This document shows positions 11 to 3,743 of a stretch of 41,781 bases of DNA, piece after piece. This DNA is from Thermoplasmata archaeon (lineage in GTDB: Archaea; Thermoplasmatota; Thermoplasmata; UBA10834): positions 1-41,781 of the forward strand of contig JALOTQ010000003.1 in assembly GCA_025457815.1 (NCBI GenBank), read 5' to 3'. Each line of letters begins with the position of its first letter. Positions within the stretch are counted from its first letter, which is position 1. Both the position numbers and the translations under genes were made by a program. The notes below the pieces were generated by a model. The model was not told where the DNA came from, searched no databases, and saw only the letters and a list, made by a program, of their open reading frames with translations.

Positions 11-910
11 TTGAGTCGTATGATGACCTACGAGCACAGGATCTTCGGGTGCCCTGTCTGTGGCTACAGGATTTCCCAGAAGGATGCAGCCTGTCCCAGG
101 TGCGGAAACGCGTTCTCGGGTACGACGAAGGTCGAGTGCCCGTTCTGCGGAGACTTGGTGGAGCAGGGGGCGGGGGCATGCCCTTCGTGCCACGTGGACT
201 ATGCGGAGTTCAGGGCGAGCACTGAGGCGAGGGGCGGCGACGACAGCATCGACGCGCTCCTCAACGAGATCATCAAGCTCGAAGCCTCGTCCGTCAAGGT
301 CGAGGGAAAGATTGTAAGCTGCCCCAAATGCAACTGGCTCCTGAAGGGCGACGAGACCGAATGCCCGAAGTGCGGCATGGAGTTCAGCGAGGACGTCAGC
401 TTCCAGTGCCCCATCTGCGGCTCGCCGGTCGCATCCGACGCCACGAAGTGCAGCGAGTGCGGCGTGGAGTTCGGAGGCGAGGAGGGCGCCGCCGAGACTG
501 AACCGAGCGAGGGGCAAGAGAAGGTCTCGGGAAAGCTGGACGAGATCGCCAGCGCGCTGGGCCTGGGGCCTGTGGAGGAACCAGCGCCTCGGGTGGCACC
601 TCCGCCGAAGGCTTGGAGCGAGCCCGCCCCGCGTGAACCGGAGCCCGAACCGGAACCTGCGCCTGAACCGGCCCCTGAGCCAGTTCCTGAACCCGCGCCT
701 GAGCCTGTCGCCGAGGAACCACAGCCGCGGGCCGAGCCTGAGCCGGTGGCTGAGGAACCTGCGCCGGAGCCTGCGACTGAGGTTTTCGACGAGAGCTCCT
801 TCCAGGAGCTTGAGAGCGCCCTGAAGGAAGTGGAGCAGGCTACTCCGAAGAAGAAGTCGAAGCAGAGGAAGCTGAAGGCCAAATCCCCGGGCGCAAAGAA
901 GCCGAAGTGA
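11..910 (+). CDS. Multi-zinc-ribbon protein with Pro/Glu-rich linker and Lys-rich tail
   Basis: Four successive CxxC...CxxC ribbons (CPVCG..CPRCG, CPFCG..CPSCH, CPKCN..CPKCG, CPICG..CSECG), then PEPEPAPEPAPEP tract and KKKSKQRKLKAKSPGAKKPK tail. Start uncertain (TTG at 11 or ATG just downstream); window edge. Confidence 0.8.
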   Translation: MSRMMTYEHRIFGCPVCGYRISQKDAACPRCGNAFSGTTKVECPFCGDLVEQGAGACPSCHVDYAEFRASTEARGGDDSIDALLNEIIKLEASSVKVEGKIVSCPKCNWLLKGDETECPKCGMEFSEDVSFQCPICGSPVASDATKCSECGVEFGGEEGAAETEPSEGQEKVSGKLDEIASALGLGPVEEPAPRVAPPPKAWSEPAPREPEPEPEPAPEPAPEPVPEPAPEPVAEEPQPRAEPEPVAEEPAPEPATEVFDESSFQELESALKEVEQATPKKKSKQRKLKAKSPGAKKPK

Positions 911-1692
911 GGGCTCAGACCGAGAAGGTTATTTCTTCAGCCGCGCTTCGAGTCATCGATCTGATGATATTCATAGACGCCAGGGAAGGAGCTTCCGGAG
1001 ACATGCTACTCGCGGCCATGCTCGGGCTGCTGGACAGTCCCGACAAGGCTCTGGTCGTCAAGCTGCTCGATGCGGCGGCGTCCAGGCACGGGCTTGGGCT
1101 GCGCGTGCTGGACATCGACGAGGACGGCGTCGCAGGGAAGGCGGTCAACTACGCGGTGGAGCGCCCGGCGAACGAGTCGACATCGAGGGACGAGTGCCTC
1201 CGCATCTTCGCCGAGATCGAGAGAGACCTCGGCTCGGAATCGGATGTCGGCGGCCGCATCCTCGGAGAGATATTCAGGGCGGAGGCTGAGGCGCACGGAA
1301 TTCCGGAGCGCGATGTGCATCTTCACGAGATCGGGAGGCCGCAGGCACTGCTCAACATCGCGGCCATCGGCCTCGTCGCGGGAATGCTCGGGAGAGCGCA
1401 CGCTGGCGAGTTCATGTGCTCGACCATAACCACAGGCATGGGGGTCATCGCCGTCAGCCACGGCGCCATCAGGGTGCCCGCACCCGCGAGCGCCATACTT
1501 CTCAGGGGCATGAAACACCTCAAGGGCGACTCTCCAGGGGAGAGGGCTACCCCCTCGGGGATCGCTGCGCTCAAGGTCCTGTCGAGCTCGCAGGGCGATG
1601 AACTGTCTGGCGAACCGAAACGTACGAGCACGGGCTTCGGCAGCAAGCGGTTCGGGGGCAGGCTCGGCCGGATGACGCTCACCTGGCGCTGA
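907..1692 (+). CDS. LarC-like (DUF111) nickel-pincer cofactor protein, N-terminal part only
   Basis: DAREGASGDMLLAAMLGL, VHLHEIGRPQALLNIAAIG, TTGMGV, RVPAPASAILLRG, ERATPSGIAAL motifs. Start GTG 907 (GTGA overlap with upstream stop) or ATG 964. Confidence 0.8.
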   Translation: MRAQTEKVISSAALRVIDLMIFIDAREGASGDMLLAAMLGLLDSPDKALVVKLLDAAASRHGLGLRVLDIDEDGVAGKAVNYAVERPANESTSRDECLRIFAEIERDLGSESDVGGRILGEIFRAEAEAHGIPERDVHLHEIGRPQALLNIAAIGLVAGMLGRAHAGEFMCSTITTGMGVIAVSHGAIRVPAPASAILLRGMKHLKGDSPGERATPSGIAALKVLSSSQGDELSGEPKRTSTGFGSKRFGGRLGRMTLTWR

Positions 1693-1739: not shown

Positions 1740-2069
1740 ATGCTACGAGCCTTCCATAACATCGTTAAATATCAATACGGTCGTCTGCTGGGACGGCTCT
1801 GGGAGAGATTTAACTTGGAAGAAAGTGGCGACCCTATCCCCCAACCCGCCAAGACCCTAGACTGCATCGGCTTGTACTGTCCAGAGCCGGTGTTCAGAAC
1901 CCGTGAGGAGATTTCCTCGATTCCCCTTGGACAGGTCCTAGAGGTCCTGGCAGACGACCCAGCTTCTGAATCCGATATCAGGAGCTGGGCGAAGCACGCC
2001 GGTCAGAAGCTGCTGTCGATCGAGAGGGTGAAAGGCGGTTTCCGGTTTCTGATCAAGCGTGAGACATAG
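1740..2069 (+). CDS. TusA/SirA-family sulfur-carrier protein
   Basis: LDCIGLYCPEPVFRTREEI (CPxP motif), small alpha/beta protein. Real start may be TTG at 1815 given TATA-like taaatatc near 1765. Confidence 0.8.
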   Translation: MLRAFHNIVKYQYGRLLGRLWERFNLEESGDPIPQPAKTLDCIGLYCPEPVFRTREEISSIPLGQVLEVLADDPASESDIRSWAKHAGQKLLSIERVKGGFRFLIKRET

Positions 2070-2082
2070 GAGGGAGAGACTC

Positions 2083-2451
2083 ATGGCGAAGAAGATACTG
2101 TATGTTCAGACCTCGGGCACGGACACGCCCGAGAGGCTGTACGCGCCGTTCATACTGGCGACGACCGCGAGGGCGATGGGTGTCGAGGCGACCGTGTACT
2201 TCCTGGGCAAGGGCGTGACGGCCGTCATGAAGGGGAACGCAGAGAAGGTCAAGCTCGGGTCGTTCCCGACGGTGAAGGAGGTCATGGACCAGGCGGCCAA
2301 GGAAGGCGTCCGGATGCTCATCTGCGGCCAGAGCTGCCAGATGCTGGGCCTCAAGGGCGACCCCGAGGAGTTCGAGGACCCGGCCAAGGTGGTCGGCGCG
2401 GCCACGCTGAACGACCTGTTGCTCGAGTCGGACGCGGTGCTAAGCTTTTAG
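2083..2451 (+). CDS. DsrE/DsrF-like sulfur relay family protein
   Basis: MAKKILYVQTSGTDTPERLYAPFILATTARAMGVEATVYFLGKGV...LICGQSCQMLGL; ATG 2083 preceded by ggaggg. Confidence 0.8.
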   Translation: MAKKILYVQTSGTDTPERLYAPFILATTARAMGVEATVYFLGKGVTAVMKGNAEKVKLGSFPTVKEVMDQAAKEGVRMLICGQSCQMLGLKGDPEEFEDPAKVVGAATLNDLLLESDAVLSF

Positions 2452-2489: not shown

Positions 2490-3743
2490 ATGTTGTTCCA
2501 GGCGAGCGGAGCCAAGAAGAGAGTGTACATGGACTACGCGGCGGCGTCCCCCGTCGACGAGAGGGTGGTCGCTGCCATGATGCCGTACTTCTCGGACAAG
2601 TTCGGCAACCCGTCCTCGCTGCACAACGCCGGCAGGGAACCGAAGAAGGCCATCGAGGACGCAAGGGCCAAGGTGGCGGCGCTGTTCAACGCCAAGAGGA
2701 AAGAGGAGATAGTCTTCACCTCCGGTGGGACCGAGGCCAGCAACATCGGGATCAAGGGGGTCGCGATGAGGCTCAGGCCCGAAGGGAACCACATAGTCAC
2801 TTCCGCCATCGAGCACATCTCCGTGCTCAACATCATGAAGTCGCTCGAGAAGGGCGGGTTCGAAGTGTCCTACATCCCCCCGACGAACGACGGGTTCGTC
2901 GACGTCTCCAAGCTGCAGCAGGCCCTGAGGAAGGACACCATCCTGGTGTCCATCATGCATGCCAACAACGAGATCGGCACGCTCCAGCCCATCGACGAGA
3001 TAGGCGCGCTGCTTGAGGAGCGGGACATCACGTTCCACGTGGACGCGGTCGCGTCCGCCGGTAAGGTCCCGACAGACGTCCAGAGGTCCAAGGCGGACCT
3101 CATGTCCGTATCCTCGAACGACATGTACGGCCCCAAAGGGGCCGGGGCGCTCTATGTCCGCGACGGCACCCGCATCGAGGCAATCTACCAGGGAGGTGGC
3201 CAGGAGCGCGGGCTAAGGTCGGGCTCCGAGAATGTCCCTGCCATAGTGGGCTTCGGGGCCGCCGCTGAAATCGCGAGGAACGAGATGGACTCCGAGGGCA
3301 GGAGGCTCGCCGCGCTCAGGGACAGGCTGGTCAAGGGAATCACGGAGAAGATCGAGGACTCGTTCCTCAACGGCCATCCGACGAGGCGCCTCCCGAACAA
3401 CGCGAACTTCAGGTTCAGATACGTCGAGGGGGAGTCGATGCTCCTCAACCTCGACATGATGGGCGTCTCGGTATCCTCGAGCTCGCCTTGCACCTCAAAG
3501 AGCCTTCTGCCGTCGCACGTGCTGCTCGCGTGCGAGATACCAACGGAGGAGGCCCAGAGCGCGGTCCAGTTCACCCTGGGCAGGTCGAACAACGAGGAGG
3601 AGATCGACTACGTCGTCGGGATCCTCCCGGGCATAATCAAGAAGCTGAGGGCGATGTCGCCGTTCAGCCCCGAGAACCTGGCAGAGATGCGCTCGACCGC
3701 GGGGCACAGGGAAGAGGAAGACCACCATCACATAGAGGAGTGA
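2490..3743 (+). CDS. IscS/NifS-family cysteine desulfurase homolog with substituted PLP-lysine
   Basis: MDYAAASPVDERVV, GNPSSLHNAGR, FTSGGTEASNIGIKG, NNEIGTLQPI, SSSSPCTSKSLLPSHVLLA; SNDMYGPKG where SxHKxYGPKG is expected. Confidence 0.92.
   Translation: MLFQASGAKKRVYMDYAAASPVDERVVAAMMPYFSDKFGNPSSLHNAGREPKKAIEDARAKVAALFNAKRKEEIVFTSGGTEASNIGIKGVAMRLRPEGNHIVTSAIEHISVLNIMKSLEKGGFEVSYIPPTNDGFVDVSKLQQALRKDTILVSIMHANNEIGTLQPIDEIGALLEERDITFHVDAVASAGKVPTDVQRSKADLMSVSSNDMYGPKGAGALYVRDGTRIEAIYQGGGQERGLRSGSENVPAIVGFGAAAEIARNEMDSEGRRLAALRDRLVKGITEKIEDSFLNGHPTRRLPNNANFRFRYVEGESMLLNLDMMGVSVSSSSPCTSKSLLPSHVLLACEIPTEEAQSAVQFTLGRSNNEEEIDYVVGILPGIIKKLRAMSPFSPENLAEMRSTAGHREEEDHHHIEE

Follow-up and report, generated by a model that had tools for sequence, protein, structure and literature searches.

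The window analysed here, a stretch of 41,781 nucleotides of a Thermoplasmata archaeon (contig JALOTQ010000003.1), encodes a lysine-less IscS of the Archaeoglobus fulgidus type, with Asn-Asp at the site of the PLP lysine, Ala in place of Gln, no substrate-binding Arg and a retained persulfide cysteine (Table 1). The strongest clue to its function lies just upstream, where sulfur carriers of the TusA and DsrE families are encoded. On sequence grounds we consider it rather probable, though by no means assured, that this protein no longer desulfurates cysteine and would instead take part in a PLP-independent persulfide relay that runs from TusA to DsrE, from there to the lysine-less IscS and on to an acceptor.

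Table 1. Genes and residues of the lysine-less IscS locus, with positions in the window.
Feature	Position	Strand	Basis
LarC N-terminal (nickel-pincer cofactor) protein	907..1692	+	NCBIfam nickel_LarC1, 93.3 bits (cut-off 90)
TusA-family sulfur carrier, CPxP Cys47 at 1878-1880	1740..2069	+	Pfam TusA, E 6e-22
DsrE-family sulfur carrier, Cys81 at 2323-2325	2083..2451	+	Pfam DsrE, E 2e-19
Lysine-less IscS (IscS/NifS fold without PLP lysine)	2490..3743	+	ORF and translation, Pfam/NCBIfam, nearest structure, model
Ala188 codon (canonical Gln, E. coli Gln183)	3051..3053	+	Alignment; column outside selection
Asn210-Asp211 codons, replacing His-Lys of PLP site	3117..3122	+	Sequence, alignment column
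Window-family-specific cysteine loop SSSSPCTSK (residues 329-337), including Lys337 (Cys+3)	3474..3500	+	Alignment
Cys334 codon, persulfide cysteine	3489..3491	+	Alignment
Gln360 codon (canonical substrate-binding Arg, E. coli Arg356)	3567..3569	+	Alignment; column outside selection

The IscS/NifS-like reading frame starts with ATG and encodes 417 amino acids, and its homology to Pfam Aminotran_5 extends across the full fold (E 1e-74). The protein scored below the equivalog cut-offs of NCBIfam FeS_nifS (498.6 bits, cut-off 530.75) and IscS (438.2, cut-off 643.2) and above that of the subfamily PRK02948 (308 bits, cut-off 304). Its AlphaFold model (pLDDT 88.7) has A. fulgidus structure 4r5f as the best fold match (TM 0.96 on target), and structures of canonical IscS, like those of A. 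fulgidus IscS, match it with a TM of about 0.9 or more on target. The motifs read as SSNDMYGPKG, HVDAVASAGK and SAVQFTLG, with the cysteine segment SSSSPCTSKSLLPSHVL and the C-terminal tail HREEEDHHHIEE.

A first-pass annotation had read in these motifs the replacement of HK by ND, of DAVQ by DAVA and of Arg by Gln, together with an intact active-loop cysteine, and alignment to other IscS loci bears out all four readings. The 45 Lys-bearing loci in the alignment have Lys (45/45), Gln (45/45), Arg (42/42 readable) and Cys (42/42) in these columns. Every locus of the ND type has Asn-Asp and every canonical locus has His-Lys, but part of the lysine-less set was retrieved with a pattern that itself requires a residue other than Lys; since the pattern excludes Lys, the informative columns are those of Gln, Arg and Cys. 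Among the matches listed, Gln was lost in all 127 ND loci (Ala in 121, Val in 3, Pro in 3), a residue other than Arg was found in 119 of 120 readable ND loci, and Cys was present in 122/122 ND, 4/4 HE and 5/5 Q-type loci. The sole lysine-less IscS with the substrate Arg (LRLTLGK) among the 120 readable loci listed belongs to Candidatus Methanoperedens nitroreducens (L153). The window protein also has Ala19 where all canonical copies have Thr, and it retains the PLP cofactor cradle, consisting of Thr81, His109, Asp185 and Ser246 (Ser/Thr in the family). The alignment places no alternative lysine at the Schiff-base site, and two candidates for that role were rejected: K216 (GPKG) is common to canonical enzymes and K337 sits in the cysteine loop. 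Lys337 is present in 122/122 ND loci among the matches listed versus 11/42 canonical loci. The further suggestion of the first-pass annotation, a metal-binding C-terminal tail, proved weak: the His-rich tail varies even inside the family (HREEEDHHHIEE, HREKEDHHHSEE, HKERDEDHHQDG, HRERHGRGGHQRS), and it was rejected as a conserved metal site because its sequence differs between members.

The nearest solved structures, by sequence (E 4e-134) as well as by fold, are those of A. fulgidus IscS (4eb5/4eb7/4hvk and the D199K mutant 4r5f), the protein that the first-pass annotation had named as a precedent and for which the Lys-to-Asp change is published. Over the aligned part the two proteins are about 53% identical, and A. 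fulgidus IscS likewise has Asp at the PLP-Lys position, Asn where canonical enzymes have His and Ala where they have Gln, has lost the Arg and has kept the Cys; its cysteine loop reads STGSACSSK, whereas that of the window family is SSSSPCTSK. According to PMC7585200, the Lys-to-Asp change leaves A. fulgidus IscS without desulfurase activity, and the protein gives a cysteine ligand to the cluster on IscU. The presumed desulfurase inactivity of the window protein is carried over from the A. fulgidus publications. Together with the A. fulgidus structures, this account favours the proposal, also made at first pass, of a persulfide or Fe-S scaffold role in place of a PLP enzyme. Methanosarcina acetivorans IscS1, whose gene cluster also holds IscU1 and four genes without known function, is likewise described as lacking the catalytic Lys and has been compared to A. 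fulgidus IscS (PMC7585200); its likeness to the window protein is taken from this published description. Canonical IscS/NifS proteins, such as E. coli IscS and MisS of the MIS system, share the fold, the position of the cysteine loop and the PLP cradle, but differ in having Lys, His, Gln, Arg and Thr and in their operons.

A closed genome of 2,178,400 bases, taken as A. fulgidus because it encodes a protein with a 100% match to 4eb5, contains TusA-DsrE-IscS-IscU at about 164 kb and DsrE-IscS-IscU at about 512 kb, both with the lysine-less IscS. Carriers thus stand upstream as in the window, while IscU lies directly downstream in both operons, unlike in the window family. Past IscU, the first operon (L258:89-3585) continues with genes for a second DsrE-like protein (by eye), an uncharacterised protein of 346 aa, a paralog resembling SepCysS and one more protein. 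No Lys-bearing type I/II desulfurase was found among the 10 PF00266 matches of this genome, five of them weak and judged by their low score only; the other matches include, as judged by eye, two proteins that resemble SepCysS and one that resembles an aminotransferase and carries GSQK. Several metagenome-assembled genomes are further candidates for having lysine-less copies only, but since these assemblies are incomplete, the claim is restricted to the closed A. fulgidus genome.

The lysine-less state is widespread. In a first survey, 200 genomes of the window's class were searched for lysine-less relatives, which revealed Asn-Asp throughout the window's family and Asn-Asp, Gln-Asp or Gln-Glu in several other families. 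A pattern scan of named genomes for an acidic residue, Asp or Glu, at the Lys position matched at least 118 stretches and gave at least 80 loci; among the matches listed, five had no IscS match, one was canonical (L110) and at least 74 were lysine-less homologs. Those listed belong to many phyla, namely Bathyarchaeia, Thor-, Loki- and Hermodarchaeota, ANME-2, Methanoperedens, Hadesarchaea, Nitrososphaeria and Thermoplasmata among the archaea, and deltaproteobacteria, WOR-3/Stahlbacteria, Aminicenantes, Nitrospinota, Eisenbacteria and Nitrospirae among the bacteria. In a quick tree from which the four trait columns were omitted, ND and Q-type sequences formed one group (SH-aLRT 98). The free tree suggested two independent losses of Lys, one in the ND clade and one in the Nitrospirae with SAHE; two losses are not claimed because a tree with a single lysine-less clade including SAHE scored better by 37 log units, and a single origin was not rejected (p-AU 0.86). 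The four Nitrospirae loci (L086, L101, L140, L167) have SAHE for SAHK, Gln-to-Ala and Arg-to-Val changes, TusA upstream in 3/3 and IscU downstream in 4/4. The gene for the Q-type IscS with SQD or SQE (L085:3801-4706; L147, L139, L156) directly follows that of a Cys-rich 302-aa protein, to which Pfam gave no match, and is convergent with the gene for a PLP enzyme of the cystathionine-gamma-lyase type; neither TusA nor DsrE nor IscU was found near these loci. The AlphaFold model of the 302-aa partner is poor (pLDDT 65) and gave no fold match at E < 0.5, and an in-frame TAG considered as readthrough in the SQD loci is the terminal stop of the reading frame.

For neighbour counts, profiles built from the neighbouring genes were searched across the collected loci, of which 181 (about 180) IscS loci remained after strict duplicate removal. 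TusA and/or DsrE immediately precedes IscS in the same orientation at 94 of the 105 lysine-less ND loci with enough flank among the matches listed (TusA 91, DsrE 58, both 55) and at 3/3 SAHE loci with enough flank, versus none of 39 loci with a Lys-bearing IscS. A Fisher test on an earlier, less strictly deduplicated set of 191 loci (100/121 lysine-less of all types pooled versus 0/39) gave p 3e-22, a value that overstates independence because the loci are related and the tree allows a single lysine-less origin. In genomes with both kinds, the Lys-bearing copy stands without TusA/DsrE (e.g. L214 versus L229). Eleven ND loci and all Q-type loci are without adjacent TusA/DsrE. Downstream, IscU follows the lysine-less IscS in 89 of 101 ND loci outside the window family, among the matches listed. 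The cysteines that would carry sulfur are conserved in the operon homologs, i.e. the CPxP Cys of TusA in 100/101 and Cys81 of DsrE in 66/66, and the three cysteines and the Asp of IscU are near-invariant. The same carrier families with conserved cysteines make up the E. coli TusA-TusBCD relay and the TusA-DsrE pairs of sulfur oxidisers, but here they stand upstream of a desulfurase fold that lacks the desulfurase residues, and IscU is the usual end of the operon. Other operon neighbours at several loci (L067, L075, L107, L121, L125, L130 and others) resemble, by eye, heavy-metal P-type ATPases and the oxidative-stress proteins of anaerobes, namely rubrerythrin, desulfoferrodoxin, flavodiiron protein and ferritin. 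The lysine-less state and the inactivity have already been published for A. fulgidus, but the operon context is apparently undescribed: we found no description of a link between TusA-DsrE and a lysine-less IscS, or of an IscU-less branch, in a literature coverage outside which most subscription papers fell.

The window family reads as a derived branch that has kept TusA-DsrE-IscS, without adjacent IscU and with an altered cysteine loop. Among its 12 loci the three genes are kept in 10/10 with flank, IscU is adjacent in 0/12, and the loop SSSSPCTSK replaces the xSxGSACxxK found elsewhere. The window genome is 88% complete and does contain a second, canonical IscS (SGHKFHGPKG, DAVQ, LRLTLGR; contig C148), located beside the only IscU detected, as well as a SufS-like protein (contig C49) and LarE. 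The LarC gene adjoins TusA upstream in the window and in six relatives from its genus and sister genus, and its membership of the operon is uncertain. A LarE-type sulfur transferase is encoded within 8 kb of the lysine-less IscS in A. fulgidus (L259:562-1359) and at four Asgard loci (L084, L141, L171, L176). The proximity of LarC and LarE hints at a possible sulfur supply for nickel-pincer synthesis in the window family.

In the relay that we favour, sulfane sulfur would be loaded on the CPxP cysteine of TusA, passed to Cys81 of DsrE and from there to Cys334 of the lysine-less IscS, which would hand it to an acceptor. This acceptor would usually be the IscU encoded next door, in which case the operon would assemble Fe-S clusters from a sulfur supply other than L-cysteine. 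Within the window family, the protein would serve an unlinked IscU or another acceptor, for which LarE is a candidate. The residues of cysteine chemistry (Lys, His, Gln, Arg and Thr19) have been replaced as a set while Cys334 is kept, which suggests a carrier of persulfide and not a maker, and since the neighbours are sulfur-relay carriers and the last gene is usually a scaffold, the order from TusA via DsrE and the lysine-less IscS to the acceptor is favoured. We infer the direction of sulfur flow, the original sulfur donor and the acceptor in the window. Against the relay counts that a gene neighbourhood gives no direction of flow and that E. coli IscS passes sulfur on to TusA and does not receive it from there, that nearly all members conserve the PLP cradle, for which a pure relay has no obvious use, that the eleven ND loci and the Q-type loci named above are without adjacent carriers, that the window family is missing an adjacent IscU, and that the loci are not independent, a single lysine-less origin being compatible with the tree. 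Moreover, TusA could be loaded from cysteine by a canonical desulfurase in many genomes, as the His-Lys desulfurase motif was matched in 35/50.

The main rival is the published A. fulgidus view, in which the IscS cysteine would be a mere ligand of the nascent [2Fe-2S] cluster on IscU and free sulfide the source, without transfer through IscS. It draws on the structure of the A. fulgidus IscS-IscU complex, in which the IscS cysteine ligates the cluster, on the reported absence of desulfurase activity and on the frequent adjacency of IscU outside the window family. However, it leaves the near-constant upstream TusA/DsrE unexplained, and the window family keeps these carriers with IscS at loci that lack IscU; we regard it as unlikely, although a serious contender. 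A reversed flow seems more doubtful still. Here canonical IscS would charge the lysine-less protein, which would pass sulfur to TusA and DsrE to serve tRNA thiolation or cofactors, in the manner of the E. coli pathway from IscS to TusA and TusBCD. The known partners of E. coli IscS include both TusA and IscU. TusA and DsrE are homologous to components of the E. coli pathway, TusA docks on E. coli IscS as a direct partner (PMC2854127; 3lvj), and the window genome has both a canonical IscS and LarE. Yet a lysine-less IscS, if inactive, cannot make its own persulfide, A. fulgidus yielded no Lys-bearing desulfurase among its PF00266 matches that could start the chain, and the operon usually ends in IscU.

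There is a slim chance that the protein is still an enzyme, which would bind PLP or PMP non-covalently, with Asp211 or a different base catalysing slow desulfuration or some other PLP reaction. This could account for the conserved cradle, and one publication refers to the A. fulgidus protein in its title as 'an unusual L-cysteine desulfurase', but the Arg that binds the substrate carboxylate, the Gln and the Thr have been lost too, and a later publication, as cited in PMC7585200, reports no activity. Lastly, the lost catalytic residues might mark a decaying paralog or pseudogene, a reading that is ruled out for practical purposes by purifying selection, with a dN/dS of 0.09-0.19 against seven relatives of 75-82% identity, by substitutions kept across many phyla and in 11/11 relatives fetched from the window's genus and family, and by the conserved operon, in agreement with the first-pass argument against random decay.

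More broadly, and with less assurance than for the relay itself, we tentatively propose that TusA-DsrE-IscS-IscU with a lysine-less IscS may represent a widespread cysteine-independent ISC system, in which a former desulfurase would have become an obligate relay of inorganic sulfane sulfur, redirected to another acceptor in the window lineage. As a rule for annotation, an IscS with SSND and upstream TusA/DsrE should not be named cysteine desulfurase. For M. jannaschii, the sulfur source of Fe-S clusters was described as unknown until sulfide was put forward (PMC12192291). The operon, found in Asgard archaea, ANME, Bathyarchaeia, Archaeoglobi and several anaerobic bacteria, offers a concrete and testable route by which sulfide-rich anaerobes without an active cysteine desulfurase may supply their Fe-S clusters with sulfur.
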